Assembly (NCBI GenBank): GCA_017893485.1
Contig: CM030365.1
Coordinates: forward strand, 30,464,289 to 30,528,288
Source of the DNA: Hemerocallis citrina
Taxonomy: Eukaryota > Streptophyta > Magnoliopsida > Asparagales > Asphodelaceae
Direction of reading: 5' to 3'
Length of the DNA stretch: 64,000 bases
Part shown: in pieces, positions 3,041-64,000 of the stretch
Numbering within the stretch: position 1 is the first letter of the stretch
Layout: the number at the start of each line of letters is the position of its first letter
Program-made: the position numbers and the translations under genes
Notes under the pieces: generated by a model
What the model saw: only the letters and a program-made list of their open reading frames with translations
The model's database searches: none
Told to the model about the DNA's origin: nothing

Positions 3041-3044
3041 CAAG

Positions 3045-37830: not shown

Positions 37831-40800
37831 TGTAACTACCGTTTCCGCTATTTTCATTTCCCCACTTTTGTAATATTATATTTGTATTTAAATAAAATAC
37901 TCTATTTTTGTTTCTTAATTATTTTAATTAAGATTTTGTTCATTAAATTCTTCATTCTTGGGGATTGAGCTATTTTTGTTGATCATATTTTCTTCTATTT
38001 TGTTGTGGTTATTTTTATTTGAACCCTATTGATTTGGATATATCTCTTATTGAACCCTTCAACCCAATTCATTTGTTCTTGACCCAAAACTACTATTATT
38101 GGATCCTCAACCCTTAACCCAATACCCTAATTGTACCTTATAAATACAAATCCACTGCAACCCCTAAAAATTACACACAACTGAAACCCTAGCTGCTTAT
38201 TCTCTCTCCTCTCTCTCCTTGTCGTTCTCTCTCCCCGTTGGTTTCCCGCCCAACTCCAAGAACCCATTGTAGCACCTTCTTCCCTAACCAATTTCCGGCA
38301 CCCATTTCAACAACCCCATCCATCGGCGACCCCCTAGTCGCCATCCCCTCCCGTCTACGCCCACACAGCTGCCCAACCAAAACCCCGACCCCTTATTTAT
38401 GATCGTCAGCCAAATCCCCAATCCCTCCTCAACCAAGCAGTGCCGCCCTGTTGCACTGTCGACCTCGCCGTCGATCCCGCCTCCGCTGGTCGCCAGCGCC
38501 ACCGCCCCCTTGGCCTGGTCGCTATTGTCGTTGTCTCTTTGTTAGTGGCTATTGCTGCAATTGCTGAGTTCTCTTGTTTCTGTTATTGCTTTGGATCTTT
38601 ATTGCACATGTATTTTATGTGTTAAATTAATTAGTCCGTAGGTTCGTTGCTTCGAGATCCTTATCCTATTATTCTTGGTACTCGTTTTCACCGGTTATAA
38701 GGCAAGTCACTGTCCTCTTGAATTATTAATTGTATCAAACTCAAGTTTTGTTGAAACTCTTGCAAGTAGATCCCTTGTTATGGTATTATACTTTGTTCAT
38801 CTCTTTGTTGGGTCTATTGAGAGTTTACACGAGCTAATCCCAGTATTCTTGACATCGTGCCACTTTTGACTCCAAAGATTGAATCTCTCATGAGTACATA
38901 TAAAATTGATAATAGGGTTGTTCATCTAATTGTCACATAAATAACTTATTGTAGAAATAATTGTTAGGTTGTATGTTCGGTTGATTGATTGTTGTTGGTT
39001 GATGATAAATTGATGTATTAGTGTGTTCTAATTTTATTCATCTTGTTTTTGCACCCATCATGCTGATTAGATAGTTTATCGACTAATGGAACTGATACCC
39101 ATCCTATTTAAATTAATTTATTTCAAGAAAACTACCCAAAATTCTGTATATTGCTTGTGACCTGTATGTCAACTGCTATTTTTGAACCAATAAATTATCT
39201 TAAATTACTTTCTGAATATGAGTTGTATCCTTATCTTTCCATTTTCCAGAACATCTTGAATTTTTGAATTCCGAGTTATATAGCAAAAGTCATGCCCGTT
39301 TTACTATACCTGTGTTTTTACTTTTAGATTTCCAGATTTTATCTTGCATGCTTAAACAGTAAAAAGGCTGATCAAATGTTAAAATTTTGCTCTGAAAATT
39401 TTGAGATTGTTAGTAATCATATTTAGAAGTCCAGAAAATATTTCTTATAAATTTAATATTGAGTTTTTGCTGATTCTAAAATTATAATAATATGATGTCA
39501 AAATTCTGCCTGAGCATGAAATATGTAAAGAACATTGTGATTGACCTAGCTACTATTGTCGGATTTGAACTTTAAACATGCGTTGGAACCTTGTGGAAGT
39601 CTAGTTTAAATAATTTCTGACGGATTCTGTTTTCGAGTTCTGAAACAGCAGGAAACTACATTTTTGTACAGACTACTTTTGCTGTCCAGAATTTTGTAAA
39701 TCAGATTTTAATAGATTAATTATTCCTATATCGTACTATTACATGAATTAATGTATGTATGTTGTATTGCATAATCCTAATGAGTTATTGTCATCATTCT
39801 ATTTGTCCTACTTCATGTTATCATCCTATTGTTCCCCTATTGATATTATCGCTCACCGAAATGTCCATTATTTGCATAGTGTATTGTTGCATTGTTAAAT
39901 AATTAATAAGTCTGGGATTAAGGGATTGACTAGAGTAGTTGATGATATAGAGTCTGTACTCGGATGATGGCCCGTGATTATTACAGTTATCGTCATCGTG
40001 TAAGAAATTACACCATGGCCCATGTTATTACCGTTATCGTCATCGTGTAAGAAATTACACTATGGCCTGTATTATTATCGTTATCGTCATCATACCCAGT
40101 ACATGAACTATAAAATCTAGAACTATAAAATCTACCACTATAGTCTAAACGAAATTGATTATATGCATCGAACCTGGGGTATGGAACATATGGGACACAG
40201 TAGTACATGCATTAGTTAAGATTTAAAATGACTAATAGACATAAGGATTGAAACATCAACGACATTGTATATTATTCATCATTGTTTTCATTGATATCGA
40301 ATATTGGCTAAGTGTTACCGTTATGGATCATTGATTATTGTTACCGAATATTGAATCATTGTTTATAGCCATTGCATCGATTACCGTGATATTGATTATT
40401 GATTATTGTGCCATGTTATTGATTCCTATTGATCCATTGATTCATTGTTATACCGTTATTCCACTGTTCCTTGCTTTCTCTACTTGCTTTCCATGACTTG
40501 CTCTAAGGACAATTTTTCTTCTGTTTTTAGATAAAGTGTACACAGGTAATGAAGGAGAATTGCCTAGTGGGATTGGAGAACAGGCATTCTAAAGACTTAA
40601 TGCTTTCTAATTGCTTATCGCTTTAATGAACTTATTGTATTGAGACTTGTTACTATTGTGTTTGAGATTTATTATTGTATTGGGCTCATGTCCCGGATTT
40701 TATTATTGTTTCCAGATGTTGGATTATTATTGTATTTGGATATTTTTATTACTTCATTCCAAGTATTATTGTTCATGAAATTATTACTATTGCCTGCGCA

Positions 40801-41653: not shown

Positions 41654-43235
41654 TGTAGCGCCCCGAATTTCTAATATGATATCTCAGAAATATGTGGCAC
41701 AATTTCCAGCATCAACTTCAATTGCAATTGTAAACATAGCCAAAACACATATAATTTTTATTACAACTTTTATTACATTAATTATTTACAAAACACAGCG
41801 GAATACAAAACACCTTGAATTACAATATTTTTCTGCAACAACACTTTCTTTTACAATTTACACAAGCCATTACATCAATTTTATCTCATGCATCCAAATT
41901 CCAATGCTAAAGGTACCTACCTTTAAAACATGAGGCTAGAGATAAGCCTAACCCCCGAAACTACAGGGGTCAGCCATAATAGTGTGAGTGACATCAAAAT
42001 AAAATAACATAAATAAATCATAAGGCATAAAGTCATAAGCAATATGTATTAACAGCATGAATAAATGAAATAAGAAATAACAATAAATAAAACATGAAAA
42101 CATCAAGGAATATGAAATAGTAAATAGTAAGACATGAAAACATCAAGTGAAACTAGACTAAGTGTCATGTGTAGGAAAGCAGGAAACAACATGCATAAAT
42201 CCAAGTCAAGAAAATATCAATGCTATATGCTGACTCTCTAATGCATACTTGTCGGATTCTATGTATCCCACAATACATAGGTCCGGTGCAAGCCCTCATC
42301 GTTCTCTACTTTATTGGGTTTGATCCCTTGTTATGCAACAAATCCTACTACGGTGATGGAGACAAGATGCAGAGTACTCCGCGAATAGGCACCACAGCCC
42401 TCGACGTGCAAGCATCTTGTAAGAATAGCGCAACAACTGGAGAATCACCTCCCAACCTTGTACCCCACGAATAGGCTTGCAAGGCCCTCGATGTGCAGAT
42501 ACACTAGGTACATTCCTTGAATAGGCCTGCCGACCCTCAACACGCGAATGCACTCTACATGCTCCGTGAATAGGCCTGCAGACCCTCGACACGCGAACAT
42601 ACAAATGTCCTCTCGAGACAGAACAACACACTGTCCTGGAACGCATCTGTTGGACTAACAAGACCAGAGCATATACTTACGTTTTCCAAGTTCCATCACA
42701 TCTACACTAGTGCATGTCCTTAAGTTGATTATTATTAAAAACACAAATCCCCCTCTTTAGAATTAGTGTATCCTGCCAGACTTAATTCCACAAAACAAAC
42801 CCAAGACCCCGCAGGTCTAAATCCACAAATCTCATCTGCCGGTTCACAGGACTCCCACTCAACTCCTAGAGAAATCACAACTCATCCATCAAGACCAAAA
42901 CTTTCAATAAAACTCACATATCCATCGTCAAAACGATTATATGAGGACACTTCTTAAACCAACAAAAATCCAAATCTTATATAAAATTCTAGAATCCAAA
43001 TAAATATTAAATCTATTAAATAACTGAAAATCATACTTTTAAGTTGTAGAATATCACAAAACATTAATTCATTTGAAAACACGTATAACTCAAATAAGGT
43101 CCAAAAGAATACATTTAAAGCTCCAATATAAATCCCTGTAAGACATTTTTAATGTATAGGAAAACATCTTTTAAAACAATATAATATTAAAGGAACAATC
43201 ATTCAAAAGAAGCATCAGAAAACTCAAGAAAACAT
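41654..43235 (-). mobile_element. Tekay-like LTR, minus strand, cut by Athila element
   Basis: On the minus strand it ends GAAATTCGGGGCGCTACA at 41654. It shares 'ggattctatg-atcccac-atacatagg' (42250-42280) with the LTRs at 14719 and 24842. Its start is not seen, because an Athila LTR begins at 43236. The rest should lie beyond the window. Confidence 0.75.
42378..42607 (-). repeat. About 49-bp minisatellite in LTR
   Basis: Four units of 'cc-gaataggc-tgc-gaccctcgacacgcga' occur near 42379, 42465, 42515 and 42564. The last three are 49-50 bp apart. Confidence 0.8.
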
Positions 43236-44924
43236 TGTTGTGAAATCTAGCTACCTAAATAAATCGATAAAACTAGACACAAATTAAAAAAAAACCTCAC
43301 AAGTGCACGAATCGTTTAGAAAAGCGTAGCAATAGCAAGGGTCGATCCCACAGAGATTGCAGACTTTAACTTACTAATCAATAAAAAGACTAAGAATCAT
43401 AAAGAGCTGTTTTAAAAGTCTAAAAGAAATAAAAAGATTAAAACTAAATAAGAAGTGTTGAATCACAAATATTTATGAAGTAGTTGGGTTTAGATCTCCA
43501 CCAATAGTCAGTAATGCTAATTAACCTTCTGAACTTCTTCTTATTACTCATGTTTGTTCCCTTCAAGGGCATGGTATCTACTCCTCAAAGTACTGTTTCC
43601 CTAAGCCAAGAATTAGGCATGGTATCTACTCTAATTCGTTTCTTTCATTAAGTATTTTTAGCATGGTATCTACTAAGTTGCATTTAAAGAAAACATAAGA
43701 TCAGTGGAAACGAACAAACACTCAAGGTTCTAGAAATTGGTATCAGATCTAGATCCCTTAAGTTGATTGAACCAACAACCCCTAAAGATTCCCTTGTTAC
43801 AAATTATGAACACGAGATACGGGTCGTCTCAATATGCTCATATAACAGATTCAGATAAATGGTAATGCAAACTTGATATTCTCAAGATCTGTATGTCAGT
43901 CGACTGGCTCTCACCTCAGTCGACTGCTCTCAGAGCTTCGAGAACAAGCTTGATTATCATCAATCTATATCACTTCATTTAGATTCAATCAATAAGTAAA
44001 ATAAAAGAATTCAGAAGAACATAGCACTACATAACTATGGTTTCAATCTACCCAACTATGAAATTAGTTCCACATAATAATGCTTTTATTAATCAACAAG
44101 TTCGAATACATGACCAACATAAAAGTATAGAAGAAGAAGAAATAAACTAATGAAGTCCGGCAATGAGGTCGACTGGCTGTCACACAGTCGGCTGCCTTCG
44201 AATACTTGATCTCCTATCTCCTTCCTCGATGCTGATAGAATAATGCCCCTGTTGATGACTTGAACGCTCAGAAACTCTTGTGATTCGGTGATTAGGAACG
44301 TGGAAGAAGATAGAGCCCCCCCTTCATGCTTCTTGGTTGGTATTTATAGAACACAGCTGAGGAATTAGGGTTTTTTTTCTTTTTCAGGAAAGTCCCTCTC
44401 TTTTTATTATTTCTTTCCTTATTTTGATCGGCGATTTATATCTTTCTCTTTTCTTCTTTTATTCCTTATCTGCTAACCACGTGCTTTTGCCAATCCCCTG
44501 TCTCTGGCTTTGATTCGTTGGAGAAGTTATTATTCACATATAGCCTGGGTTTGGATAGATTTAGATTTAGATTCGGCTGCATCTTATCCTTTCACTCCGC
44601 CGCATACCAGTCGACTGCCTTGGATGAATGTCGACTGGTACTGAGACATCTGTGGCTTCACGATTTCTCGGTCAAGTCGACTGGTGTTTGGGGAAGTCGA
44701 CTATGCCGAGGCTTAGCAAACTCTCTGTCCGGTCGACTGGTTGAGGAATCAGTCAACTGATCTCTGCTGTAGTTTGTATTGGTCTGGAATCTGTTTTGTT
44801 TGCTGTTATCGGCTGTTTCCTATTGAAAAGAAAAAATAAGAGTTAAATACCACATATAGAGCTTTTAAATGTGCATTTATAATAAGATTATTGCTCCTAA
44901 ATGTGAATATTCTTGTGTTCATCA
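43236..44924 (-). repeat. Athila 3' LTR (minus-strand element)
   Basis: On the minus strand it starts TGATGAACACAAG and ends CTAGATTTCACAACA, 1689 bp. A TATA word lies at about 44342-44348 (minus). GTCGAC or close variants occur in pairs about 20 bp apart near 43911, 44167, 44610, 44683 and 44733. Confidence 0.92.
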
Positions 44925-44940
44925 AATACCCCCAAACTTA
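44925..44940 (-). promoter_or_regulatory. Athila polypurine tract
   Basis: On the minus strand TAAGTTTGGGGGTATT lies directly before the LTR start. The same tract precedes LTRs 53190 and 58349. Confidence 0.85.
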
Positions 44941-45925
44941 GATTTTTGCTTGTCCTCAAGCAAACTAGAATTATGAACAAGGGTATCTTTATAATAATGA
45001 CAGCCTTAACCACCTAGAGTTCTTATTATGTGAGTATCAACATATTAACTATAAACAATTTCATATAAAGTAAAATTAAACATGCCCACTTTCTCTAGTG
45101 CAATTGTTTAGTCATAATTCCCAGACTCAATCATATTTGTCATGCAATTAATGTAGTTATAGTATGCGACTACTCAATCTGTGATTATCTCCTCTTCTCT
45201 ACTACAAACCGAGTAGCAAACTAGAGTTTTTTATTTTTTATTTTTTATTTTTTTATTTTTTTATTTTTTTTAGTCTCTTCTCTAAAGCTGTCACTTGCCT
45301 TTTGACGCGAATGCGAAACATTGGTGATGAATCCACCTGGTTACTCAGCAAGTCACAAACTCTAAAGTGCTTTGCATACTCATATTTCAAGTTGCCGTTT
45401 GACGTAAAGGTAAACATTGGTGATGAATACCCCTAGTTACTAAGCACTCAAAACATTGGAGTAGATTGACTTTATTCAAATATATATATATTTATTTATC
45501 ACTCTATTTACTTAAACTCAATTTAGGACTAGATTTAAAGAGAATAATCACCAGAAAAAGGTATCACATTTGTTTATTATGTATAATCACATGACTTACA
45601 TAACTTTGTAGGGAACTATGGAACTCAACAATCCTAAAGTAAATAAGTATCCTTCTTCTTACTTTATAAGAAATTGTTTATCCTTAAAAAAAAAATTCAA
45701 AAGACTCTATAAAATAACCCTAATACCCCCAAACTTAGATGGAACATTGTCCTCAATGTTCGAAAGAAAATTTAAAAATAGGCATGTGTCACATCTAGTA
45801 AGGAGAGACTGAAAATAAAAGATAAAATGAAAGAAAATAGAGGGAAAGTGTAAATACTCCCCTGAAAAATTGGGTTGCCTCCCAATAAGCGCTGTGTTTT
45901 CTATCTTCAGCTAGACATGATGAGT
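44941..45925 (-). other. Athila 3' noncoding region with conserved repeat pair
   Basis: There is no env-like coding frame. A direct repeat pair (minus strand; 45292-45344 and 45388-45441 on this numbering) has the core 'ATTCATCACCAATGTTT'. It is conserved in the plus-strand derivatives. T-rich runs at 45225-45270. The word GGGAGGCAACCCA near 45880, just after the coding end, is shared with the derivatives. Confidence 0.7.
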
Positions 45926-47065
45926 TCATGCCATGTCTTGAATGGTTTGAAGATTCACATCTTCCTCTTGCGGTTCTAGACTCATCTCTATGTATGGCTT
46001 CGCTCTATGCCCGTTCACCTTAAATGTTTGATTCTTTTCTTGGCTATGAACCTCCAATGCACCATGTGGAAAGACTCTTGTGACAATGTATGGCCCATAC
46101 CATCGTGACATAAGCTTGCCTGGAAAAAGTCTCAATCTTGAGTTGTATATCAATACCTTCTGTCCTTCATAAAACTCCTTCCTTGCTAGCTGTTTGTCAT
46201 GGTACAACTTTGTCCTTTCCTTGTACAATTTTGCATTTTCGTATGCGTCATGCCTCAACTCTTCAAGCTCATTCAGTTGCAATCTTCGTTTGTCGCCTGC
46301 CTGTTTCATATCAAAATTGAACCTTTTAATAGCACAATAAGCTTTGTGCTCCAACTCTACTGGCAAATGACAAGCTTTTCCAAAAACCAAACGGTATGGT
46401 GACATGCCGATGGGTGTTTTGTAAGCCGTTCGATAGGCCCATAATTCATCGTTCAAGCGCAGCGACCAATCCTTTCTCCTTGTGTTGACTGTCTTTTCCA
46501 AAATGCTCTTAATTTCTCTATTGCTGATCTCCACCTGTCCACTAGTTTGAGGATGATATGGGGTGCCCACTTTATGTGTGATACCATATTTCTTCATCAA
46601 AGAAGCAAATGGAAAGTTATTGAAGTGGCTCCCTCCATCACTAATTATTGCTCGTGGTGTACCAAACCTAGTGAAAATGTTCTCCTGCAAAAACTTGACA
46701 ACAACTTTGTGATCATTAGTTTTTGAGGGGACAGCCTCGACCCATTTAGACACATAATCCACACCAACAAGTATATATAAATAACCAAATGAGTTAGGAA
46801 AGGGACCCATGAAGTCGATTCCCCAAACATCAAAAAGCTCGATCACTTGGATGTTTTGCAGTGGCATTTGATTTCTAGAAGAGATGTTCCCTGTCCTTTG
46901 ACATTTGTCACAAGACCTGCACAAAGAAAAAGCATCTTTGAATACTTTAGGCCAATAAAATCCAGATTGCAATACCTTGAGTGCTGTTCTTTTTGGTCCA
47001 AAATAGCCTCCACATGCATATTGTTGGCAATGTTGTAAAATGCTCATTTGTTCTTCTTCTGCCAC
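45926..47065 (-). pseudogene. Athila integrase (379-codon open frame, pol fragment)
   Basis: The frame is open for 379 codons, but it is only the integrase part of pol. A stop just upstream (IIR*CVAEEEQ, consistent with CGA to TGA) cuts it from RNase H. Catalytic residues D, D, E are visible in [20 protein letters not shown] and [12 protein letters not shown]. In the zinc-binding part CRSCDKC is intact, but the second His is Tyr (GGYFG where GGHFG is usual). C-terminal motifs [18 protein letters not shown] and [11 protein letters not shown] are complete. The last 50 codons align to the tail kept in the derivatives at 51624 and 56787. Confidence 0.88.
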
Positions 47066-47068
47066 ACA

Positions 47069-48027
47069 TCATCTTATAATTTGATCAGGGCAAAATTTGA
47101 ACAAATAAGGATCATCCCAATAATAGTGCTTGCACATAGCCACTGGTCTCTTTCTTTCCTGACTTGTCATACCTGGAGGGAAAACATGAGCGGTTAGATA
47201 ATTTACAATATCTGCAAACCATGGAAAATTTAAACAGTGAGATACCAGTCGACTGGTCCTGATACCAGTCGACTGTCCCGAGGATAAGTTTATTTCAAAG
47301 AGGTGTTCATCTGGGAAAGTTTCATTAAGTGGCGGCACAATTCTTTCTTCCTCCTGCAGTAGCCTGGACATGTGATCTGCAACAACATTGTCGCTTCCTT
47401 TTTTATCTCTAATCTCAAGATCGAATTCTTAAAGCAACAGCACCCATCTGATCAACCTAGGCTTAGCATCTTTTTTCGCAAATAAATATCTCAAAGCAGC
47501 ATGGTCAGTGAAAACAATAACTTTAGAACCAATCAAATATGATCTAAACTTCTCTACAGCAAAAATAACAGCTAACATTTCTTTTTCAGTAGTAGAATAA
47601 TTTAGCTGTGCATCGTTTAAAGTTCGAGAAGCATAGTAAATAACATGTGGTTTCTTATTGATTCTTTGACCTAACACAGCTCCTAAAGCATAATCACTTG
47701 CATCACACATGAGCTCGAAAGGATGGCTCCAATCTGGTGCCATGACAATAGGTGCAGAAATGAGAAGATTTTTCAATGTATTAAAAGCATTTGTGCACTC
47801 TTCTGTCCATGCAAACTCAACATCCTTAGCTAATAAATCACAAAGGGGTTTGGAGATTTTTGAGAAATCTTTTATAAATCTTCTATAGAACCCTGCATGT
47901 CCTAGAAAACTCCTAACACCCTTAACTGTAGTGGGAGGGGGTAGTTTTGATATTATATCGATTTTTGCTTTGTCTACCTCTATACCTCTTTTTGACACCA
48001 CGTGTCCCAACACAATACCTTTTTGTA
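47069..48027 (-). pseudogene. Athila RT end and RNase H, with palindrome-bearing linker
   Basis: On the minus strand it starts at the insertion point with [20 protein letters not shown], then [13 protein letters not shown] and RNase H ([28 protein letters not shown]). A stop at about 47427 (LLL*EFDLEI, consistent with CAA to TAA) interrupts the frame, which resumes to ADHMSRLLQEEE. The linker to integrase at 47247-47278 contains two GTCGAC palindromes 20 bp apart, read as QSTG and then, in the next frame, TSRLV. It joins in frame to the RT part at 60029. Confidence 0.87.
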
Positions 48028-49706
48028 TGATGAACACATTATTATTCACATTTAGAGGCAATAATCTTAATGAAATTAGACATTTAAAAGCTCTATATGT
48101 GGTATTTAACTCTTATTTTCTCTTTTCAATAGGAAATAACCAAAAGCAGCAAAACGAAGCAAATTCAGGATCTTAAGGATGAACTCAGAAGATTACAGAA
48201 GCATCAGTCGACTGGTTCTCCACAACAAGCGACTGGACAGAGAACTCAAGCTTACACAGATGTCTCGTCATAGTCGACTTACTCTAAAGGACAGTCGACT
48301 AGTCTGATCAATTATGAAATCTTCAGAAGTCTCGACTCAGTCGACTGGTTCGAAGACAAGTCGACTGGTCTGCGGCGGAGTAAACAGATAAGATATTCAA
48401 AGATACACCTGCATCTAATTTCGAATCTATGTGGATCCAGATTTTATATGAAGAATCAAATCTAAAGACTGGGTATTTCCAAGAGCACGTGGTTAACAGA
48501 TAAGGAAGGAAAGAAGAAAAGAGAAAGAAATAAATCACCAAATCAAATAAAGAAGGACTTTCCTGAAAAAGGGCAAAAACCCTAATTCTTCAGCCGCCTC
48601 TATAAATATCAGAAAATGGATATCATTCGGGACGCTCTCTTCAACATTCCAAAACTACCGAATCACAAGAGTTTCTGCGCATTCAAGTCATCAACAAGGC
48701 CTTATTCTATCAGCATTGAGGAAGGAGAGAGGAGATCCAGTATTCGAAGGCAGTCGACTGTGTGACAGCCAGTCGACCTTATTGCCGGAGTTCATTAGTT
48801 TATTTCTTCTCTTTCTATTCTTTTATGTTTATCATGTATTCAAACTTGTTGATTAATAAAAATATTATTATGTGGAACTAAATTCATAGTTGGGTAGATT
48901 GAAGCCGTAGTTATGTAGTGCTATATTCTGCTGAACTCTTCTAGTTTACTTATTGATTGAATCTGTTTGTATTGATATAGATTGACGGTAATCAAACTTG
49001 TTCTCAAAAGCCTGAGAGCAGTCGACTGAGGTGAGAGCCAGTCGACTGACAAACAGAGCTAGAGAATATCAAGTTTGTATTACTATCTATCTGAATCTGT
49101 TATATGAGCATATTGAGACGACCCGTATCTCGTGCCCGTAATTGTAACAAAGGGATCTTTAGGGGTTCCTGGTTCAATCAACTTAAGGGATCTAGATCTG
49201 ATACCAATTTCTAGGACATTGAGTGTTTGTTCGTTTCCACTGATCTTATGTTTTCTTTAAGCACAACTTAGTAGATACCATGCTAGACACTTAATGAAAG
49301 AAACGAATTAGAGTAGATACCATGCCTAATTCTTGGCCTAGGGAAACAATACTTTAAGGAGTAGATACCATGCCCTTGAAGTGAACAAACATGAGTAATA
49401 AGAAGAAGTTCAGAAGGTGACTTAGCATTACTGACTATTGGTGACAATCTAAACCCAACTATTTCATAAATATTTGTGATTCAACACTTCTTCATTCAGT
49501 TTTAAGCTTTTTATTTCTTTTAGACCTTTAGAACAACTCTTTATGATTTTTATTACTTTCTATTGACTAGTTAGTTAAAGTCTACAATCTCTGTGGGATC
49601 GACCCTTGCTATTGCTACGCTTTGTCAAACGATTCGTGCACTTGCGAGGTTTTATAATTTGTGTCTAGTTTTATCTATTTATTTAGGGAACTAGAAACCA
49701 ACAACA
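48028..49706 (+). repeat. Derivative LTR 1
   Basis: 1679 bp, TGATGAACACATT to CCAACAACA. TATAAAT at 48601-48607; CACGTG near 48486. Palindrome array at 48205-48375, with further pairs near 48753 and 49020. One base is missing in GCCGC-CTC just before the TATA word compared with the other two LTRs. Confidence 0.95.
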
Positions 49707-49712
49707 AGTTTT

Positions 49713-49730
49713 TGGCGCCGTTGCCGGGGA
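49713..49730 (+). promoter_or_regulatory. Primer binding site 1, tRNA-Asp
   Basis: TGGCGCCGTTGCCGGGGA is an exact complement of the 3' end of plant tRNA-Asp, the normal Athila primer. Confidence 0.95.
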
Positions 49731-49901
49731 TTGTTTAGTATTTTAACTTACAAATCAGTAAAATCTTTTTCTTTTTATTTTATTTTATTTTTTCTTCTTC
49801 TTTTATAACATTTTCTTTCAGGTTACATTCTGCACAGGCAGACCAGTCGACTGTCCCAAGGATCAGTCGACTGTCCAGAGGAATTTTTCCAAAAAGCAGC
49901 A

Positions 49902-51668
49902 ATGGGTGAAATTTTTTTAAACCGAGTACCAATGCAAGACAAATTCATTCCTAAGAATATTGAGAACCCTTCTTGCATAGCTTTTCAATCCAAAGTCACA
50001 GGGAATATGCATCTATCTCCTCAATTGCTCAGCATGGTGCCCCACTTATTTGGCAGAACAGACGAAGATCCGCACCTCCATTTGCAAGATTTCTTTGATC
50101 TTTGCAGAAAACAAAGCGTCCAAGGGCTTTCCCCTGAACAGATCAGGTTAATCTTGTTTCCATTTTCATTAAAACTTAATGCTAAATTGTGGTATAATTC
50201 CTTGGAACCAGGATCAATTCAATCATGGGAACAATTGGCAACAAAATTTTTGAAGGAGTTCTTTCCAGCCCAGAAAACCAGACAACTAAAAAGGGAAATT
50301 CTACTTTTCCAACAAAAAGATGGCGATTTATTTTTCGAGGCATGGAAGGACTTTAAGAACAAGCTTTACAAGTGTCCTACGCATAACATACCTAAGGATG
50401 ATCAGGTACAATCATTTTATGAGGGTTTAAATGACACTAACAAAGCAATTGTAGATGCAGGTTGCAATGGAATGTTGATGAGGAAGAGTGCTGAGGAGGC
50501 TATAGAGCTATTTGAAGAACTCAGCGAGAACTCACAACAATTCTCAACAAGGAGGGGTCTTTCGAAAAAACAGGGAGTATACGGAATTTCTCATAATAAT
50601 AACATGCAATAAGAAATGGAAACCATGAACAAAAAGATTGATATGCTTGTGAATTCAACGTTGGGTAGCGTAAAAAACCAACCAATAGAAATTGGTGCAA
50701 ATTGTTTTCAATCTAACCATACAACTAATTCATGTCCCATGTTTTCTTTCGCAGATCAGGAGCACACAAACTACGAAGAACAAGGAATGTACCCGCCCCA
50801 GAACAATTTTTTTTCAAACCCGTATAACCCAGGGTGGCAAAACTATCAAGGCAATCAATTCACACCAGGGCATACGCAACAATTCCAGGGTGGGAATGGA
50901 TATGATAGGCCAGAACAAGAACAGAATAAGTTGGATTTCGAAACCACCATTCTTCAACTACTCCAACAGCAACAGCAAACAAGCAGGCAACAAGGACAGG
51001 CCATTCAAAAATTGGAATTTCAAATTGGTCAGATTGCTACGGAGTTAAGTGAAAGGAAGGCAGGAGAATTCCCATCACAAACCATACCTAACCCTAGAGG
51101 ACAAGAACAGCTCCAATCAAGAACAACACTAGAGGAAGAGATTGAGTTTAAAATGTTTGATGCACCACAATGTCCACACGATGATCATGAATGTTATAAT
51201 GTTGATGTGGTTAAGGAAATTTGTGACCAAACATTTCGGGAACATAGTGTTAATCCATTACAAGAAACAGTTACACACCCTCTAACATTATCTCATGTTG
51301 AACAGGAATACGATGACTAGAGGATGGCAGAGACAGTACATCACCTTGAAACTCCAAAGTCATATTCAGGTAAGCTTGCACCTGCATTTGAAAAATTTGT
51401 ATCTGATAACATTTGTGTTTTTCCAGACCAGTCGACTGGTGCATGGAGCCAGTCGACCGCTACCAGGATTCCAGACATGGAGCTGAAGCCACTACATGAC
51501 CATTCGAAGTCTGAATATGTGGGAGAAAACCAGACATTTCCTGTGACAGTTGCTGCAAATTTAAGGATGCATAAAGAAGCAAGGCTGCAGGGAGTCTTGC
51601 AGGAGCACAATGGTGCATTAAGATGGATCCTTGCAGATAAGCTGATGTCAAGATGGTACGGTCCATAA
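49902..51668 (+). pseudogene. Athila gag-like fused frame, copy 1 (two stops)
   Basis: A frame of 588 codons plus stop runs from MGEIFLNRVPMQDKF to LMSRWYGP. It contains the Athila capsid part (HLHLQDFFDLCR, EQIRLILFPFSLKL, FLKEFFPAQKTRQLKRE, DLFFEAWKDFKNKL), a degenerate zinc knuckle (ANCFQSNHTTNSC) and a glutamine-rich stretch. The protease is missing (TTL joins EEEIEFKMFD). The RT-to-integrase part is also missing: the RT-start remnant RWILAD joins the integrase tail KLMSRWYGP. In-frame stops are TAA at 50610-50612 and TAG at 51318-51320. Copy 2 has Leu and Trp codons there. Confidence 0.9.
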
Positions 51669-53189
51669 ATTGTTGCAAAGGTTTCCCCCACATGGAGCAT
51701 TGGAGCAAAAATCAAACATTCAAGGTGAATGGGCAGAGGGGGAAACCTTATAATAAGATGAGTTGGGAGCCGCGAGCCATTCACTACATTGCACAAACTC
51801 ATCGAGTCTAGCTGAAGACAATAAACACAGCGCTTATTGGGAGGCAACCCAATTTTTCAGGGGAGTACTTACACTCTCTCTTTATTCATTTTTTTTAACC
51901 ATTTCTTTATTTCTTTTTATTGCATTTAGACTTGATTTATTTTTTGTAGTTTATTTATTTTAATTTTTGGATTTTATCTTATAGGATTGCAGAAAATTTG
52001 AAGTCGCCGGGGCGGAGCTGTTTTGAACACATGCATTGACGGCTGTTTTTGAGCAATTTAGATTCAAAATCTGGAAAAGTGATTCAAAGATAAGTTGTAG
52101 CCTATCTTCTTAGCTTTCCAGCAAAAAAAAATTCAGCCCATTTGGACATCTACAGCTCCGGATATCGCCAAAATACCGAACGCTGCTCGTGCAGAATTTT
52201 CAAGACGAATCAGGGGAGAATTTCTGAACTTTTGCATTCTTTTTGTTTTTCTTTTTCCTTTCCCATTGAGGACAATGTGATATTTAAGTTTGGGGGGGAA
52301 TGTTTACAAATTTTGATTTATTTTTAGAAAAGCAAAACAAATTTTTTTAAAAAAAGGATTTAAATTAATCTCACCATTACACTTTTGAGTTCTTAATTGT
52401 GATAAGCATTGGAATATTTCTTTTGGGATAAACAATTTCTTATAAATTAAGAGTAAGTATACTTATTTACTTTAGGATTATTGAGTTTCATAATTCCTTA
52501 CAAAGTTATGTGAGTCATGCAATTATACATAATAAACAAATGTGATGCTTTCTTTCTGGTGATCATTCCCTATAGATCTAGTCCTAAATTGAGTTTAAGT
52601 AAATAGAGTGATAAAAAAATATATATATATATAACTATATACTTGAATAAAGTCAATCTACTCCAATGTTTTGAGTGCTTAGTAACTAGGGGTATTCATC
52701 ACCAATGTTTACCTTTACGTCAAACGGCAACTTGAAATATGAGTATGCAAAGCACCTTAGAGTTTGTGACTTGCTGAGTAACCGGGTGGATTCATCACAA
52801 ATGTTTCGCATTCGCGTAAAAAGGCAAGTGACAACTTTAGAGAAGCGACTAAAAAAAAAAAAGAAAAAAAGAAAAAAAAAAAAAAAAAACTCTAGTTTGC
52901 TACTCGGTTTGTAGTAGAGAAAAGGGGATAATCACAGATTGAGTAATTACATACTATAACCATAATTAATTGCATGACGAGTATGGTTGAGTTTGGAGTT
53001 ATGAATAAACAATTGCACTGGAGAAAGTGGGTATGTTTAATTTTACTTTATCTAAAATTGTTTATACCTTTCTATGTTGATGCCCACATAATAAGAACTC
53101 TTGGTGATTAAGGCTGTCATTATTATTTTCCCCTTGTTCATAATTCTTGTTTGCTTGAGGACAAGCAAAAATCTAAGTTTGGGGGTATT
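51669..53189 (+). other. Derivative 3' noncoding region, copy 1
   Basis: It begins with the remnant of the integrase tail and GGGAGGCAACCCA near 51840. It contains GTTTGGGGGGGAATG near 52290, a conserved direct repeat pair at 52681-52734 and 52777-52829 (offset 96 bp), an A-rich run at 52851-52890 and the polypurine tract TAAGTTTGGGGGTATT at 53174-53189. No env-like frame. Confidence 0.8.
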
Positions 53190-54869
53190 TGATGAACACA
53201 TTATTATTCACATTTAGAGGCAATAATCTTAATGAAATTAGACATTTAAAAGCTCTATATGTGGTATTTAACTCTTATTTTCTCTTTTCAATAGGAAATA
53301 ACCAAAAGCAGCAAAACGAAGCAAATTCAGGATCTTAAGGATGAACTCAGAAGATTACAGAAGCATCAGTCGACTGGTTCTCCACAACAGGCGACTGGAC
53401 AGAGAACTCAAGCTTACACAGATGTCTCGTCATAGTCGACTTACTCTAAAGGACAGTCGACTAGTCTGATCAATTATGAAATCTTCAGAAGTCTCGACTC
53501 AGTCGACTGGTTCGAAGACAAGTCGACTGGTTTGCGGCGGAGTAAACAGATAAGATATTCAAAGATACACCTGCATCTAATTTCGAATCTATGTGGATTC
53601 AGATTTTATATGAAGAATCAAATCTAAAGACAGAGTATTTCCAAGAGCACGTGGTTAACAGATAAGGAAGGAAAGAAGAAAAGAGAAAGAAATAAATCAC
53701 CAAATCAAATAAAGAAGGACTTTCATGAAAAAGGGCAAAAACCCTAATTCTTCAGCCGCGCTCTATAAATATCAGAAAAGGGATATCATTCGGGACGCTC
53801 TCTTCAACATTCCAAAACTACCGAATCACAAGAGTTTCTGCGCATTCAAGTCATCAACAAGGCCTTATTCTATCAGCATTGAGGAAGGAGAGAGGAGATC
53901 CAGTATTCGAAGGCAGTCGACTGTGTGACAGCCAGTCGACCTTATTGCCGGAGTTCATTAGTTTATTTCTTCTCTTTCTATTCTTTTATGTTTATCATGT
54001 ATTCAAACTTGTTGATTAATAAAAATATTATTATGTGGAACTAAATTCATAGTTGGGTAGATTGAAGCCGTAGTTATGTAGTGCAATATTCTGCTGAACT
54101 CTTCTAGTTTACTTATTGATTGAATCTGTTTGTATTGATATAGATTGACGGTAATCAAACTTGTTCTCAAAAGCCTGAGAGCAGTCGACTGAGGTGAGAG
54201 CCAGTCGACTGACAAACAGAGCTAGAGAATATCAAGTTTGTATTACTATCTATCTGAATCTGTTATATGAGCATATTGAGACGACCCGTATCTCGTGCCC
54301 GTAATTGTAACAAAGGGATCTTTAGGGGTTCCTGGTTCAATCAACTTAAGGGATCTAGATCTGATACCAATTTCTAGGACATTGAGTGTTTGTTCGTTTC
54401 CACTGATCTTATGTTTTCTTTAAGCACAACTTAGTAGATACCATGCTAGACACTTAATGAAAGAAACGAATTAGAGTAGATTCCATGCCTAATTCATGGC
54501 CTAGGAAAACAATACTTTAAGGAGTAGATACCATGCCCTTGAAGTGAACAAACATGAGTAATAAGAAGAAGTTCAGAAGGTGACTTAGCATTACTGACTA
54601 TTGGTGACAATCTAAACCCAACTATTTCATAAATATTTGTGATTCAACACTTCTTCATTCAGTTTTAAGCTTTTTATTTCTTTTAGACCTTTAGAACAAC
54701 TCTTTATGATTTTTATTACTTTCTATTGACTAGTTAGTTAAAGTCTACAATCTCTGTGGGATCGACCCTTGCTATTGCTACGCTTTGTCAAACGATTCGT
54801 GCACTTGCGAGGTTTTATAATTTGTGTCTAGTTTTATCTATTTATTTAGGGAACTAGAAACCAACAACA
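53190..54869 (+). repeat. Derivative LTR 2 (middle)
   Basis: 1680 bp. By eye it has about eight changes not shared with the outer LTRs (for example GGATTCAG near 53596 and AGATTCCATG near 54479), more than either outer LTR. TATAAAT at 53764-53770. Confidence 0.95.
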
Positions 54870-54875
54870 AGTTTT

Positions 54876-54893
54876 TGGCGCCGTTGCCGGGGA
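54876..54893 (+). promoter_or_regulatory. Primer binding site 2, tRNA-Asp
   Basis: Identical to the site at 49713, seven bases after LTR 2. Confidence 0.95.
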
Positions 54894-55064
54894 TTGTTTA
54901 GTATTTTAACTTACAAATCAGTAAAATCTTTTTCTTTTTATTTTATTTTATTTTTTCTTCTTCTTTTATAACATTTTCTTTCAGGTTACATTCTGCACAG
55001 GCAGACCAGTCGACTGTCCCAAGGATCAGTCGACTGTCCAGAGGAATTTTTCCAAAAAGCAGCA

Positions 55065-56402
55065 ATGGGTGAAATTTTTTTAAACCGAGTACCAATGCAA
55101 GACAAATTCATTCCTAAGAATATTGAGAACCCTTCTTGCATAGCTTTTCAATCCAAAGTCACAGGGAATATGCATCTATCTCCTCAATTGCTCAGCATGG
55201 TGCCCCACTTCTTTGGCAGAACAGACGAAGATCCGCACCTCCATTTGCAAGATTTCTTTGATCTTTGCAGAACACAAAGCGTCCAAGGGCTTACCCCTGA
55301 ACAGATCAGGTTAATCTTGTTTCCATTTTCATTAAAACTTAATGCTAAATTGTGGTATAATTCCTTGGAACCAGGATCAATTCAATCATGGGAACAATTG
55401 GCAACAAAATTTTTGAAGGAGTTCTTTCCAGCCCAGAAAACCAGACAACTAAAAAGGGAAATTCTACTTTTCCAACAAAAAGATGGCGATTTATTTTTCG
55501 AGGCATGGAAGGACTTTAAGAACAAGCTTTACAAGTGTCCTACGCATAACATACCTAAGGATGATCAGGTACAATCATTTTATGAGGGTTTAAATGACAC
55601 TAACAAAGCAACTGTAGATGCAGGTTGCAATGGAATGTTGATGAGGAAGAGTGCTGAGGAGGCTATAGAGCTATTTGAAGAACTCAGCGAGAACTCACAA
55701 CAATTCTCAACAAGGCGGGGTCTTTCGAAAAAACAGGGAGTATACGGAATTTCTCATAATAATAACATGCAATTAGAAATGGAAACCATGAACAAAAAGA
55801 TTGATATGCTTGTGAATTCAACGTTGGGTAGCGTAAAAAACCAACCAATAGAAATTGGTGCAAATTGTTTTCACTCTAACCATACAACTAATTCATGTCC
55901 CATGTTTTCTTTCGCAGATCAGGAGCACACAAACTATGAAGAACAAGGAATGTACCTGCCCCAGAACAATTTTTTTTCAAACCCGTATAACCCAGGGTGG
56001 CAAAACTATCAAGGCAATCAATTCACACCAGGGCATACGCAACAATTCCAGGGTGGGAATGGATATGATAGGCCAGAACAAGAACAGAATAAGTTGGATT
56101 TCGAAACCACCATTCTTCAACTACTCCAACAGCAACAACAAACAAGCAGGCAACAAGGACAGGCCATTCAAAAATTGGAATTTCAAATTGGTCAGATTGC
56201 TACGGAGTTAAGTGAAAGGAAGGCAGGAGAATTCCCATCACAAACCATACCTAACCCTAGAGGACAAGAACAGCTCCAATCAAGAACAACACTAGAGGAA
56301 GAGATTGAGTTTAAAATGTTTGATGCACCACAATGTCCACACGATGATCATGAATGTTATAATGTTGATGTGGTTAAGGAAATTTGTGACCAAATATTTT
56401 AG
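55065..56402 (+). CDS. Athila gag-like protein, copy 2 (445 aa open frame)
   Basis: The product would be the capsid-like protein that packages Athila RNA. The open frame covers the whole gag part: capsid motifs HLHLQDFFDLCRTQS, EQIRLILFPFSLKL and FLKEFFPAQKTRQ, then a knuckle remnant ANCFHSNHTTNSC, then a glutamine-rich coiled stretch QLLQQQQQTSRQQGQAIQK. The zinc knuckle lacks its first Cys; the minus-strand relative has CAICSHVDHTTDTC, a perfect CCHC. The start is the ATG matching residue 52 of the minus-strand gag. The frame stops at TAG 56400-56402, where copy 1 reads TTTCGG, and stays in frame beyond it to 56831. No protease or polymerase follows, so any activity would need proteins supplied by other elements. 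Confidence 0.8.
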   Translation: MGEIFLNRVPMQDKFIPKNIENPSCIAFQSKVTGNMHLSPQLLSMVPHFFGRTDEDPHLHLQDFFDLCRTQSVQGLTPEQIRLILFPFSLKLNAKLWYNSLEPGSIQSWEQLATKFLKEFFPAQKTRQLKREILLFQQKDGDLFFEAWKDFKNKLYKCPTHNIPKDDQVQSFYEGLNDTNKATVDAGCNGMLMRKSAEEAIELFEELSENSQQFSTRRGLSKKQGVYGISHNNNMQLEMETMNKKIDMLVNSTLGSVKNQPIEIGANCFHSNHTTNSCPMFSFADQEHTNYEEQGMYLPQNNFFSNPYNPGWQNYQGNQFTPGHTQQFQGGNGYDRPEQEQNKLDFETTILQLLQQQQQTSRQQGQAIQKLEFQIGQIATELSERKAGEFPSQTIPNPRGQEQLQSRTTLEEEIEFKMFDAPQCPHDDHECYNVDVVKEICDQIF

Positions 56403-56831
56403 GAACATAGTGTTAATCCATTACAAGAAACAGTTACACACCCTCTAACATTATCTCATGTTGAACAGGAATACGATGACTGGAGGATGGGAGAGACAGT
56501 ACATCACCTTGAAACTCCAAAGTCATATTCAGGTAAGCTTGCACCTGCATTTGAAAAATTTGTAACTGATAACATTTGTGTTTTTCCAGACCAGTCGACT
56601 GGTGCATGGAGCCAGTCGACCGCTACCAGGATTCCAGACATGGAGCTGAAGCCACTACATGACCATTTGAAGTCTGAATATGTGGGAGAAAACCAGACAT
56701 TACCTGTGACAGTTGCTGCAAATTTAAGGATGCATAAAGAAGCAAGGCTGCAGGGAGTCTTGCAGGAGCACAATGGTGCATTAAGATGGATCCTTGCAGA
56801 TAAGCTGATGTCAAGATGGTACGGTCCATAA
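56403..56831 (+). pseudogene. Tail of fused frame, copy 2
   Basis: It is in frame with the gag above after one TAG. It reads VEQEYDDWRMGETVHHLETP, the palindrome-encoded DQSTGAWSQSTA, an RT-start remnant and the integrase tail LMSRWYGP with TAA at 56829-56831. Copy 1 has the same tail and the same deletion junctions. Confidence 0.8.
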
Positions 56832-58348
56832 ATTGTTGCAAAGGTTTCCCCCACATGGAGCGTTGGAGCAAAAATCAAACATTCAAGGTGATTGGGCAGA
56901 GGGGGAAACCTTATAATAAGATGAGTTGGGAGCCGCGAGCCATTCACTACATTGCACAAACTCATCGAGTCTAGCTGAAGACAATAAACACAGCGCTTAT
57001 TGGGAGGCAACCCAATTTTTCAGGGGAGTACTTACACTCTCTCTTTATTCATTTTTTTTAACCATTTCTTTATTTCTTTTTATTGCATTTAGACTTGATT
57101 TATTTTTTTTAGTTTATTTTATTTTAATTTTTGGATTTTATCTTATAGGATTGCAGAAAATTTGAAGTCGCCGGGGCGGAGCTGTTTTGAACACATGCAT
57201 TGACGGCTGTTTTTGAGCAATTTAGATTCAAAATCTGGAAAAGTGATTCAAAGATAAGTTGTAGCCTATCTTCTTAGCTTTCCAGCAAAAAAAAATTCAG
57301 CCCATTTGGACATCTACAGCTCTGGATATCGCCAAAATACCGAACGCTGCTCGTGCAGAATTTTCAAGACGAATCAGGGGAGAATTTCTGAACTTTTGCA
57401 TTCTTTTTGTTTTTCTTTTTCCTTTCCCATTGAGGACAATGTGATATTTAAGTTTGGGGAGGAATGTTTACAAATTTTGATTTATTTTTAGAAAAGCAAA
57501 ACAAATTTTTTTTAAAAAAAGGATTTAAATTAATCTCACCATTACACTTTTGAGTTCTTAATTGTGATAAGCATTGGAATATTTCTTTTGGGATAAACAA
57601 TTTCTTATAAATTAAGAGTAAGTATACTTATTTACTTTAGGATTATTGAGTTTCATAATTCCTTACAAAATTATGTGAGTCATGCAATTATACATAATAA
57701 ACAAATGTGATGCTTTCTTTCTGGTGATCATTCCCTATAGATCTAGTCCTAAATTGAGTTTAAGTAAATAGAGTGATAAAAAAAATATATATATATATAA
57801 CTATATACTTGAATAAAGTCAATCTACTCCAATGTTTTGAGTGCTTAGTAACTAGGGGAATTCATCACCAATGTTTACCTTTACGTCAAACGGCAACTTG
57901 AAATATGAGTATGCAAAGCACCTTAGAGTTTGTGACTTGCTGAGTAACCGGGTGGATTCATCACAAATGTTTCGCATTCGCGTAAAAAGGCAAGTGACAA
58001 CTTTAGAGAAGCGACTAAAAAAAAAATAAAAAAAATAAAATAAAAAAACTCTAGTTTGCTACTCGGTTTGTAGTAGAGAAAAGGGGATAATCACAGATTG
58101 AGTAATTACATACTGTAACCATAATTAATTGCATGACGAGTATGGTTGAGTTTGGAGTTATGAATAAACAATTGCACTGGAGAAAGTGGGTATGTTTAAT
58201 TTTACTTTATCTAAAATTGTTTATACCTTTCTATGTTGATGCCCACATAATAAGAACTCTTGGTGATTAAGGCTGTCATTATTATTTTCCCCTTGTTCAT
58301 AATTCTAGTTTGCTTGAGGACAAGCAAAAATCTAAGTTTGGGGGTATT
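56832..58348 (+). other. Derivative 3' noncoding region, copy 2
   Basis: Nearly identical to 51669-53189. The direct repeat pair is at 57847-57900 and 57943-57995 with the same 96-bp offset; the A-rich run at 58015-58050 is shorter and interrupted by T. The polypurine tract ends at 58348. Confidence 0.8.
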
Positions 58349-60028
58349 TGATGAACACATTATTATTCACATTTAGAGGCAATAATCTTAATGAAATTAG
58401 ACATTTAAAAGCTCTATATGTGGTATTTAACTCTTATTTTCTCTTTTCAATAGGAAATAACCAAAAGCAGCAAAACGAAGCAAATTCAGGATCTTAAGGA
58501 TGAACTCAGAAGATTACAGAAGCATCAGTCGACTGGTTCTCCACAACAGGCGACTGGACAGAGAACTCAAGCTTACACAGATGTCTCGTCATAGTCGACT
58601 TACTCTAAAGGACAGTCGACTAGTCTGATCAATTATGAAATCTTCAGAAGTCTCGACTCAGTCGACTGGTTCGAAGACAAGTCGACTGGTCTGCGGCGGA
58701 GTAAACAGATAAGATATTCAAAGATACACCTGCATCTAATTTCGAATCTATGTGGATCCAGATTTTATATGAAGAATCAAATCTAAAGACAGGGTATTTC
58801 CAAGAGCACGTGGTTAACAGATAAGGAAGGAAAGAAGAAAAGAGAAAGAAATAAATCACCAAATCAAATAAAGAAGGACTTTCCTGAAAAAGGGCAAAAA
58901 CCCTAATTCTTCAGCCGCGCTCTATAAATATCAGAAAAGGGATATCATTCGGGACGCTCTCTTCAACATTCCAAAACTACCGAATCACAAGAGTTTCTGC
59001 GCATTCAAGTCATCAACAAGGCCTTATTCTATCAGCATTGAGGAAGGAGAGAGGAGATCCAGTATTCGAAGGCAGTCGACTGTGTGACAGCCAGTCGACC
59101 TTATTGCCGGAGTTCATTAGTTTATTTCTTCTCTTTCTATTCTTTTATCTTTATCATGTATTCAAACTTGTTGATTAATAAAAATATTATTATGTGGAAC
59201 TAAATTCATAGTTGGGTAGATTGAAGCCGTAGTTATGTAGTGCTATATTCTGCTGAACTCTTCTAGTTTACTTATTGATTGAATCTGTTTGTATTGATAT
59301 AGATTGACGGTAATCAAACTTGTTCTCAAAAGCCTAAGAGCAGTCGACTGAGGTGAGAGCCAGTCGACTGACAAACAGAGCTAGAGAATATCAAGTTTGT
59401 ATTACTATCTATCTGAATCTGTTATATGAGCATATTGAGACGACCCGTATCTCGTGCCCGTAATTGTAACAAAGGGATCTTTAGGGGTTCCTGGTTCAAT
59501 CAACTTAAGGGATCTAGATCTGATACCAATTTCTAGGACATTGAGTGTTTGTTCGTTTCCACTGATCTTATGTTTTCTTTAAGCACAACTTAGTAGATAC
59601 CATGCTAGACACTTAATGAAAGAAACGAATTAGAGTAGATACCATGCCTAATTCTTGGCCTAGGGAAACAATACTTTAAGGAGTAGATACCATGCCCTTG
59701 AAGTGAACAAACATGAGTAATAAGAAGAAGTTCAGAAGGTGACTTAGCATTACTGACTATTGGTGACAATCTAAACCCAACTATTTCATAAATATTTGTG
59801 ATTCAACACTTCTTCATTCAGTTTTAAGCTTTTTATTTCTTTTAGACCTTTAGAACAACTCTTTATGATTTTTATTACTTTCTATTGACTAGTTAGTTAA
59901 AGTCTACAATCTCTGTGGGATCGACCCTTGCTATTGCTACGCTTTGTCAAACGATTCGTGCACTTGCGAGGTTTTATAATTTGTGTCTAGTTTTATCTAT
60001 TTATTTAGGGAACTAGAAACCAACAACA
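58349..60028 (+). repeat. Derivative LTR 3
   Basis: 1680 bp, closest to LTR 1: about six differences by eye, against about ten to LTR 2. TATAAAT at 58923-58929. It is followed by TTGTA and the interrupted RT. Confidence 0.95.
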
Positions 60029-63369: not shown

Positions 63370-63470
63370 CCACCAAAATCCTGTATCCTAAAAGAAAAAT
63401 ACTGATTAATAAAATTAAAAGAAAGAAAATAAAAACTTGCTACTGATCTGTAAGTTAAAATACTAGACAA

Positions 63471-63488
63471 TCCCCGGCAACGGCGCCA
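63471..63488 (-). promoter_or_regulatory. Athila primer binding site, tRNA-Asp
   Basis: On the minus strand TGGCGCCGTTGCCGGGGA, exact, lies six bases after the 5' LTR. Confidence 0.95.
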
Positions 63489-63494
63489 AAAACT

Positions 63495-64000
63495 TGTTGT
63501 GAAATCTAGCTACCTAAATAAATAGATAAAACTAGACACAAATTAAAAAAAAACCTCGCAAGTGCACGAATTGTTTAGAAAAGCATAGCAATAGCAAGGG
63601 TCGATCCCACAGAGATTGCAGACTTTAACTTACTAATCAATAAAAAGACTAAGAATCATAAAGAGCTATTTTAAAAGTCTAAAAGAAATAAAAAGATTAA
63701 AACTAAATTAAGAAGTGTTGAATCACAAATATTTATGAAGTAGTTGGGTTTAGATCTCCACCAATAGTCAGTAATGCTAATTAAGCTTCTGAACTTCTTC
63801 TTATTACTCATGTTTGTTCCCTTCAAGGGCATGGTATCTACTCCTTAAAGTACTGTTTCCCTAAGCCAAGAATTAGGTATGGTATCTACTCTAATTCGTT
63901 TCTTTCATTAAGTGTTTTTAGCATGGTATCTACTAAGTTGCATTTAAAGAAAACATAAGATCAGTGGAAACGAACAAACACTCAAGGTTCTAGAAATTGG
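63495..64000 (-). repeat. Athila 5' LTR, partial (window end)
   Basis: On the minus strand it ends CTAGATTTCACAACA. It is nearly identical to 43236-43740, the matching end of the 3' LTR, and runs off the window. Confidence 0.93.

Follow-up and report, generated by a model that had tools for sequence, protein, structure and literature searches.

Introduction

Palindromic boxes have been described in the Sireviruses, a Ty1/copia group, where the RM boxes lie in the upper LTR before the TATA box and before env, in 8–32 copies (Bousios et al. 2010, PMC2829016). In that paper the boxes are called Sirevirus-specific and are said to be absent from the classic elements compared there; a CGG-CCG signature is present in 12 of the 13 boxes of its Table 3, and the Vitis box is CGGTCGACCG. 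Arrays of short target motifs are also known from the VANDAL transposons of Arabidopsis and their VANC proteins (Hosaka et al. 2017, PMC5735166; follow-up PMC10398659). The VANC21 motif YAGTATTAY is non-palindromic, lies in one orientation and mainly in non-coding DNA, and has an element-encoded binder (PMC5735166). Retand and other Tat-type elements carry contiguous tandem arrays of at least three copies of an 8–100 bp unit, located for the most part between pol and the 3' LTR (Vicient 2025, PMC11963269).

Here we analyse a 64,000-nucleotide stretch of Hemerocallis citrina DNA (contig CM030365.1; hereafter the window), in which a short palindrome with a GTCGAC core recurs in pairs in two Ty3/gypsy-type elements. 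We regard these palindromes, from their sequence and arrangement, as candidate boxes for recognition at the DNA level by a dimeric protein, a tentative reading to which we give a little less than an even chance.

Organization of the two elements

Element A (48028–60028, plus strand) is of putative Athila type, carries a gag domain (Pfam PF03732) and is arranged LTR–internal–LTR–internal–LTR; it has three LTRs and two internal regions, and the units 48028–54869 and 53190–60028 are 99.1% identical. The repeat ends place the unit-1 LTR at 48028–49706 (plus strand) and the other two at 53190–54869 and 58349–60028, with the TATA box TATAAATA at 48601, 53764 and 58923. A putative tRNA-Asp-like primer site at 49713–49730 (plus strand) directly follows the unit-1 LTR, and the assignment to the Athila lineage, a name given in the initial annotation, presumably holds as it agrees with a primer site of this type. 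A keeps gag, and an ORF scan found no pol domain in it. It sits in pol of the second element, BC, between 5-bp target duplications of TTGTA at 48023–48027 and 60029–60033; a tandem with one target duplication, as seen at 48028–60028, is what recombination between copies would give.

BC is on the minus strand. Its 3' half (43229–48022) includes the 3' LTR (43229 to about 44924), an integrase ORF (45926–47065) and an RNase H ORF (47429–48061), the final bases of which (48028–48061) lie in A, and its 5' half (60034–64000) includes an RT ORF, a gag-protease ORF (61072–63369) and the 5' LTR, which starts at 63489 and runs off the window. The LTR pieces 43229–43740 and 63489–64000 are 97.9% identical, and the domain order (gag, protease, RT, RNase H, integrase) is that of Ty3/gypsy elements. 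The LTRs of A and BC are 82.7% identical over 1733 columns. Among ORFs of at least 120 aa in A and BC, five of which were examined with Pfam, we found only gag and pol pieces and antisense frames, and no extra protein.

Excess and spacing of the palindromes

GTCGAC occurs 58 times in the window, against a mean of 3.91 and a maximum of 10 in 100 dinucleotide shuffles, and 26 pairs at 18–23 bp compare with none in those shuffles; AGTCGACT is present 48 times and CAGTCGACTG, the commonest 10-bp palindrome of the window, 30 times. Because A is present as three tandem units that are about 99% identical, 22 of the 58 copies are duplicates, and the non-redundant set, from which units 2 and 3 of A are dropped, contains 36 GTCGAC and 16 exact pairs at 19–22 bp, with distances of 19 (one pair), 20 (seven), 21 (six) and 22 bp (two). 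Each of the other 63 palindromic 6-mers forms at most one pair at 19–22 bp in that set. In the retrotransposon region taken alone (13,943 bp), 29 GTCGAC compare with 0.68 on average over 300 shuffles, and pairs at 19–22 bp number 13 there and none in the shuffles. With degenerate partners included there are 19 pairs, at 19 (two), 20 (eight), 21 (seven) and 22 bp (two); the 30-bp pair 60849/60879 was omitted from the distance tally, and as a pair from the spacer and flank analyses below, and the pair 60879/60900 was entered in the tally and the spacer comparison and not in the later flank and core tests. The initial annotation had described dozens of copies of GTCGAC paired at about two helical turns, and both the number and the sharp spacing stand far clear of shuffled sequence.

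The recurrent motif is shorter than the palindrome first named. That 12-mer, CCAGTCGACTGG, is exact only three times, at 47245, 51428 and 56591, the last two being mutual duplicates, and it is therefore best taken as a consensus of which the conserved and recurrent part is 8–10 bp. Over 38 sites, with A and BC both counted, the constant part is AGTCGACT, preceded by C in 29 of 38 and followed by G in 29 of 38. Outside the core there is a symmetric context at offsets 3–5, with purines on the left (25/33 and 30/33 in a set of 11 loci) and pyrimidines on the right (24/33 and 22/33), although the right-flank pyrimidine excess is weak in a second locus set (22/33 and 20/33). Symmetric purine/pyrimidine flanks such as these are what an extended dimer site would give.

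As had been proposed, the motif is nearly confined to the two Athila types and the first kilobase. Positions 1169–43228 contain a single GTCGAC, at 38458 and without a partner, so the other elements there, labelled Tekay, Reina and Tat, lack the arrays.

Repeats of other kinds are present in that part of the window. The stretches 11696–12161, 23292–23460 and 29409–29555 are related stretches of another family and carry degenerate ACCTG(T/A)-like arrays, with ACCTG counts of 9, 12 and 13 in the printed stretches; this is a second family with short-motif arrays of its own. A 189-bp protease-region stretch of a chromovirus-like element is in tandem duplicate at 1169–1527 (about 98% identical), and a 47-bp tandem repeat at 39967–40091 has 2.6 copies with 89% matches.

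Positions of the pairs

The U3 cluster of A (48205–48369, plus strand) comprises three pairs, with cores at 48207/48228 (the second degenerate), 48273/48294 and 48340/48360 and a pair-to-pair repeat of 66–67 bp. The cluster lies 178 bp from the LTR start and its end is about 240 bp short of TATAAATA; copies of it in units 2 and 3 are at 53367–53531 and 58526–58690. Further pairs of A, all on the plus strand, lie in the LTR after the TATA box (48751–48780, cores 48753/48772), on the R-U5 side of the LTR (49019–49048, cores 49021/49041), between the primer site and the gag ATG at 49902 (49844–49873, cores 49846/49866) and in the protease-RT linker (51429–51459, cores 51431/51452). On the minus strand, BC has a U3 cluster of three pairs in its 3' LTR (44608–44759, cores 44610/44630, 44676/44696 and 44732/44752), the last of which is decayed at CpG, followed by the counterparts of 48753/48772 (44166–44194, one core changed) and 49021/49041 (43897–43926). 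The counterpart of 49846/49866 is in the gag ORF of BC, near its start (63243–63273, cores 63245/63266), and the protease-RT linker of BC holds four palindromes (60847–60928, cores 60849, 60879, 60900 and 60921) with spacings of 30, 21 and 21, all in frame.

A and BC have seven pair positions in common: three in U3, two farther along the LTR, one at the gag start or ahead of it, and one in the protease-RT linker. BC has one additional pair, in the RNase H-integrase linker (47246–47275, minus strand, cores 47248/47268), a region that A lacks. There are 16 GTCGAC in BC within the window (10 in the 3' part and six in the 5' part) and, by hand count, 15 cores in unit 1 of A, with more when the two flanking LTRs are included. 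Three of the pairs first listed (44610/44630, 48753/48772 and 49021/49041) were placed exactly, but three others were off and are corrected here, from 44683/44703 to 44676/44696, from 49843/49863 to 49846/49866 and from 63244/63265 to 63245/63266.

The motif is also carried by stretch N (1–1168), beside a chromovirus-like pol, in one pair at 14–45 (cores 16/38) and two at 746–847 (cores 748/770 and 819/840), all on the plus strand; the order and layout of the latter two are like those of the U3 cluster of A. Pfam searches with five translated pieces of N (from at least 20) returned nothing useful. N matches the U3 cluster of A at 75 of 110 positions, and with cores removed 15 of 2000 shuffles were as good for the between-pair stretch, 9 of 2000 for one spacer, 1942 of 2000 for the other spacer and 8 of 2000 for the sum, in a comparison chosen post hoc. 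Judged from this likeness, N is possibly an LTR that diverged within the A/BC lineage, and we therefore claim no independent lineages. The view of N as a third, unrelated element, with sharing of the motif across lineages, was dropped since N resembles the U3 cluster of A.

Divergence of cores and spacers

When the fast-evolving U3 of A is compared with that of BC, from nine bases inside the LTR (48037) onward, identity is 43/48 in the core octamers, 16/36 in the spacers and 335/446 in the other U3 sequence, the comparison being one of two element families. Cores differ from spacers with p ~1e-5 and from the rest of U3 with p = 0.03 (Fisher), and the spacers have changed faster than the rest of U3 (p = 0.0003). 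When the core pattern was slid rigidly along U3, 6 of 376 positions equalled or beat the observed value, and 528 of 20000 random core placements were as good; the contrast between cores and the rest of U3 is modest. In R-U5 the corresponding identities are 31/32 for cores, 23/23 for spacers and 932/1049 for the rest, and the core/spacer test is uninformative there because everything is conserved. Core CpGs are kept at 9 of 10 sites against 16 of 28 elsewhere, which is too few sites to carry weight.

The expectation that cores change more slowly than spacers across Athila copies is borne out in U3, at modest strength. The companion statement, that the bases between the palindromes are not conserved, describes U3 but not R-U5, where the spacers are identical, and between loci it is weakened by a slight same-orientation similarity that the spacers retain (see below). 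Neither a lack of excess or spacing nor equal divergence of cores and spacers is what we find, given the excess, the peak at 19–22 bp and the slower cores of U3.

Pairs as possible RNA structures

Three cores have changed (48228, 44187 and 44752) and in each case the partner core is unchanged, so that each box behaves as its own unit. This bears on the possibility that the boxes are signals at the RNA level, each pair forming a hairpin of about 10 bp, or the palindromes of two genomic RNAs pairing for dimerisation or packaging. All boxes lie inside the transcribed genome, at positions along the whole RNA and beyond the promoter; pol-less A keeps them, as it would keep cis signals for trans-supplied proteins; and folding z-scores are below −2 in 12 of 13 segments (−2.17 to −5.00; 48195–48246 at −0.95). 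Hairpin stability is no independent evidence, however, since a hairpin necessarily follows from having the palindrome twice. The outer flanks pair in just 3 of 19 at offsets 3 and 4, with no complementarity past the palindrome, and the changed cores lack a compensating change in the partner, and we consider RNA-level signals unlikely.

Hairpin transcripts might instead feed small RNAs for host silencing, by analogy with maize Sireviruses, the LTRs of which are rich in palindromes; regulatory regions of LTRs with complex palindrome motifs are described as small-RNA hotspots (PMC5311732). Under this reading one would expect such sites to disappear from an element and not to be kept in cores. Stems of about 10 bp are also short for dicing, and we rate host silencing as very improbable.

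Probable gain and multiplication of the boxes

A new observation is that two pol linkers hold palindromes in extra in-frame sequence. The protease-RT linker, measured between two conserved anchors, has 26 residues in 13 of 13 parsed relatives (12 of the 19 matches of one search plus P0012), 36 in A and 53 in BC, a surplus of 10 residues with two palindromes in A and of 27 with four in BC; the surplus in A, 30 nt, equals one pair in length. In BC the linker between RNase H and integrase has 26 residues, against 7 (two proteins), 8 (52) or 13 (eight) in the 62 of 122 relatives that were parsed, a sample heavy in Rosaceae because it consists mostly of the best 120 of 7901 matches of a search seeded with a Prunus protein. 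As these linkers are longer than those of relatives, the boxes were probably gained in the A/BC lineage, mostly by added sequence where this is visible, the direction (gain, not loss) being taken from the relatives.

Gain by insertion is also what a functionless repeat of about 30 bp (palindrome-spacer-palindrome) would produce if it spread by insertion or slippage, for example through template switching in reverse transcription; the helical spacing would then be merely the repeat period, and copies would persist where they are harmless, in LTRs, UTRs and flexible linkers. The lengthening of both palindrome-bearing linkers by whole codons is the strongest point for such a repeat. BC has four palindromes at the protease-RT site where A has two, and the stretches between pairs in U3 of A are alike (28 of 2000 shuffles as good), which suggests 66-bp duplications. 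Tandem Repeats Finder reports a single locus, 49844–49882, as a repeat of 20 bp, and the individual loci 49846, 63245 and 47248 do look duplicated. With two bases trimmed, the spacers of different loci are also alike in the same orientation (shuffles as good: 0 of 2000 and 1 of 2000), but the likeness weakens once three bases are trimmed (23 of 2000 and 122 of 2000). Some of it is seen in reverse orientation too, with two bases trimmed (6 of 2000 and 8 of 2000), and the likeness is therefore due in part to a pyrimidine-to-purine gradient. Moreover, drift should not spare cores while spacers change. A functionless spreading repeat is in our view possible, if doubtful.

Local duplication of a 20-bp unit was considered as the source of every pair and found no support: in eight permutation tests, from which the first pair of N was left out, flanks were no more alike within loci than between loci (587 to 3721 of 5000).

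A last candidate was selection for a peptide (QST/VDW/SRL) in the gag and pol linkers, suggested by in-frame QST repeats in the gag and protease-RT linker of BC. Most loci are non-coding, however (five of nine in BC and six of seven in A), the frame varies by locus (for example QST then SRL at 47246–47275), and doubled QST or VDW is present in none of 160 related proteins, the doubled motif likewise being absent from 23 gag relatives. Peptide selection was rejected on these grounds as scarcely credible.

Candidate recognition boxes for a dimeric protein

We return to the reading of the palindromes as DNA-level boxes for a dimeric protein. It builds on the excess, the spacing, the positions common to A and BC, the cores that outlast spacers in U3 and the extra linker length, and what it would add to these is a protein, a dimer, an effect on expression and selection as the cause. 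The unit would be the 8–10 bp palindrome (C)AGTCGACT(G) in two copies 19–22 bp apart, a spacing that would put two bound dimers on one face of the helix. Dyad symmetry, fixed helical spacing and conserved cores, the features of a dimer operator, are all present, with the modest contrast in U3. The putative boxes cluster in U3 upstream of the TATA box and recur in the transcribed LTR, ahead of gag and within two linkers of pol. The most likely binder would be a factor of the host that acts in transcription or on chromatin, or else a protein that another element provides in trans; once bound, it would keep the element expressed or open, much as has been proposed for Sirevirus boxes and shown for VANC target motifs. 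Short in-frame insertions would create new boxes, as would tandem duplications of about 21 bp and about 66 bp, with the cores then retained by selection.

The proposal of dimeric-protein sites in the initial annotation is consistent with the non-random palindromes, their spacing and the slower U3 cores, but it gains little from the contrast of cores with the rest of U3 and nothing from R-U5. The two alternatives listed there, an RNA hairpin array and a minisatellite seed, come out weaker than the dimer reading. Four of the nine BC loci lie outside U3 and R-U5 or in coding linkers, and a promoter-only reading leaves these unexplained; promoter elements would not be expected to lie in coding linkers. 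Multiplication and function may both hold, with boxes spread by insertion and then kept. A more far-reaching form of the idea, which we think improbable, is that the paired palindromes are an address of a Ty3/gypsy lineage, written in LTRs, gag leader and polyprotein linkers, spread by 30-bp in-frame insertions and read by a dimeric factor that tells the family, with pol-less A, from other elements, as an anti-silencing tag or a shared tag for transcription or packaging.

If the boxes are bound, palindromic address boxes, known for Sireviruses, would also have arisen in a Ty3/gypsy lineage, such boxes could be written into coding linkers, and there would be a testable system for host-factor recruitment or silencing resistance by plant retrotransposons. 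Methylation and binding are easily assayed, since GTCGAC is the SalI recognition site and has a CpG at its centre. If they are instead a spreading repeat, they would be a clean case of very short sequences multiplying in retrotransposons with the reading frame spared.

Occurrence of the pair in other sequences

The pattern CAGTCGACTG-N8-12-CAGTCGACTG had no matches in the viral_contigs collection and matched nine stretches in genome_contigs, all bacterial and with no plant carry-over. Three of these (L001, L003 and L007) look by eye like terminator hairpins and four (L002, L006, L008 and L009) are tandem repeats of a 21–22 bp unit. Such matches warn that pairs of this kind can arise for other reasons, and the count itself carries no inference. 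In L002 (2930–3045, Pengzhenrongella frigida), six GTCGAC follow at exact 22-bp steps just past an ORF end, and in L006 (4765), L008 (3779) and L009 (4535), from one Myxococcales MAG, 21-bp-unit tandem repeats with CAGTCGACTGG are present in both orientations. Alignment of gag against viral_contigs matched 48 stretches, none of them a relative. Literature searches with the exact motif strings gave, among the matches listed, none on plant retrotransposons by title, and a search for GTCGACTGG with retrotransposon gave no paper on this motif.

Comparison with known systems

With the arrays of Retand and other Tat-type elements (PMC11963269), A and BC share short tandem repeats within a Ty3/gypsy element, but in A and BC these are isolated pairs spread from the LTR to pol. 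There is also a likeness to Sirevirus RM boxes (PMC2829016): in both, short perfect CpG-containing palindromes are present in at least eight copies per element (16 GTCGAC in BC) and are concentrated in the upper LTR, ahead of the TATA box (48205–48369 in A, with the LTR start at 48028 and TATAAATA at 48601), and the Vitis box CGGTCGACCG also has a GTCGAC centre. A and BC are, however, Athila-type Ty3/gypsy elements, BC having the gypsy domain order, and not Ty1/copia; their consensus CAGTCGACTG is without CGG-CCG; and their boxes are paired at 19–22 bp and are also found in gag and pol linkers. With a host element outside the Sireviruses and no CGG-CCG signature, these boxes resemble Sirevirus RM boxes in layout and are not members of that group. 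The VANC arrays (PMC5735166) differ in that the A/BC motif is palindromic and also lies in coding sequence, and that the ORFs of at least 120 aa in A and BC include no recognisable extra protein. In both systems, an element-specific motif of 8–9 bp is present in many copies in one family, rare elsewhere and partly tandem-duplicated, and the VANC arrays are, by analogy, the best model for an element-wide address of the kind that the A/BC boxes may form.
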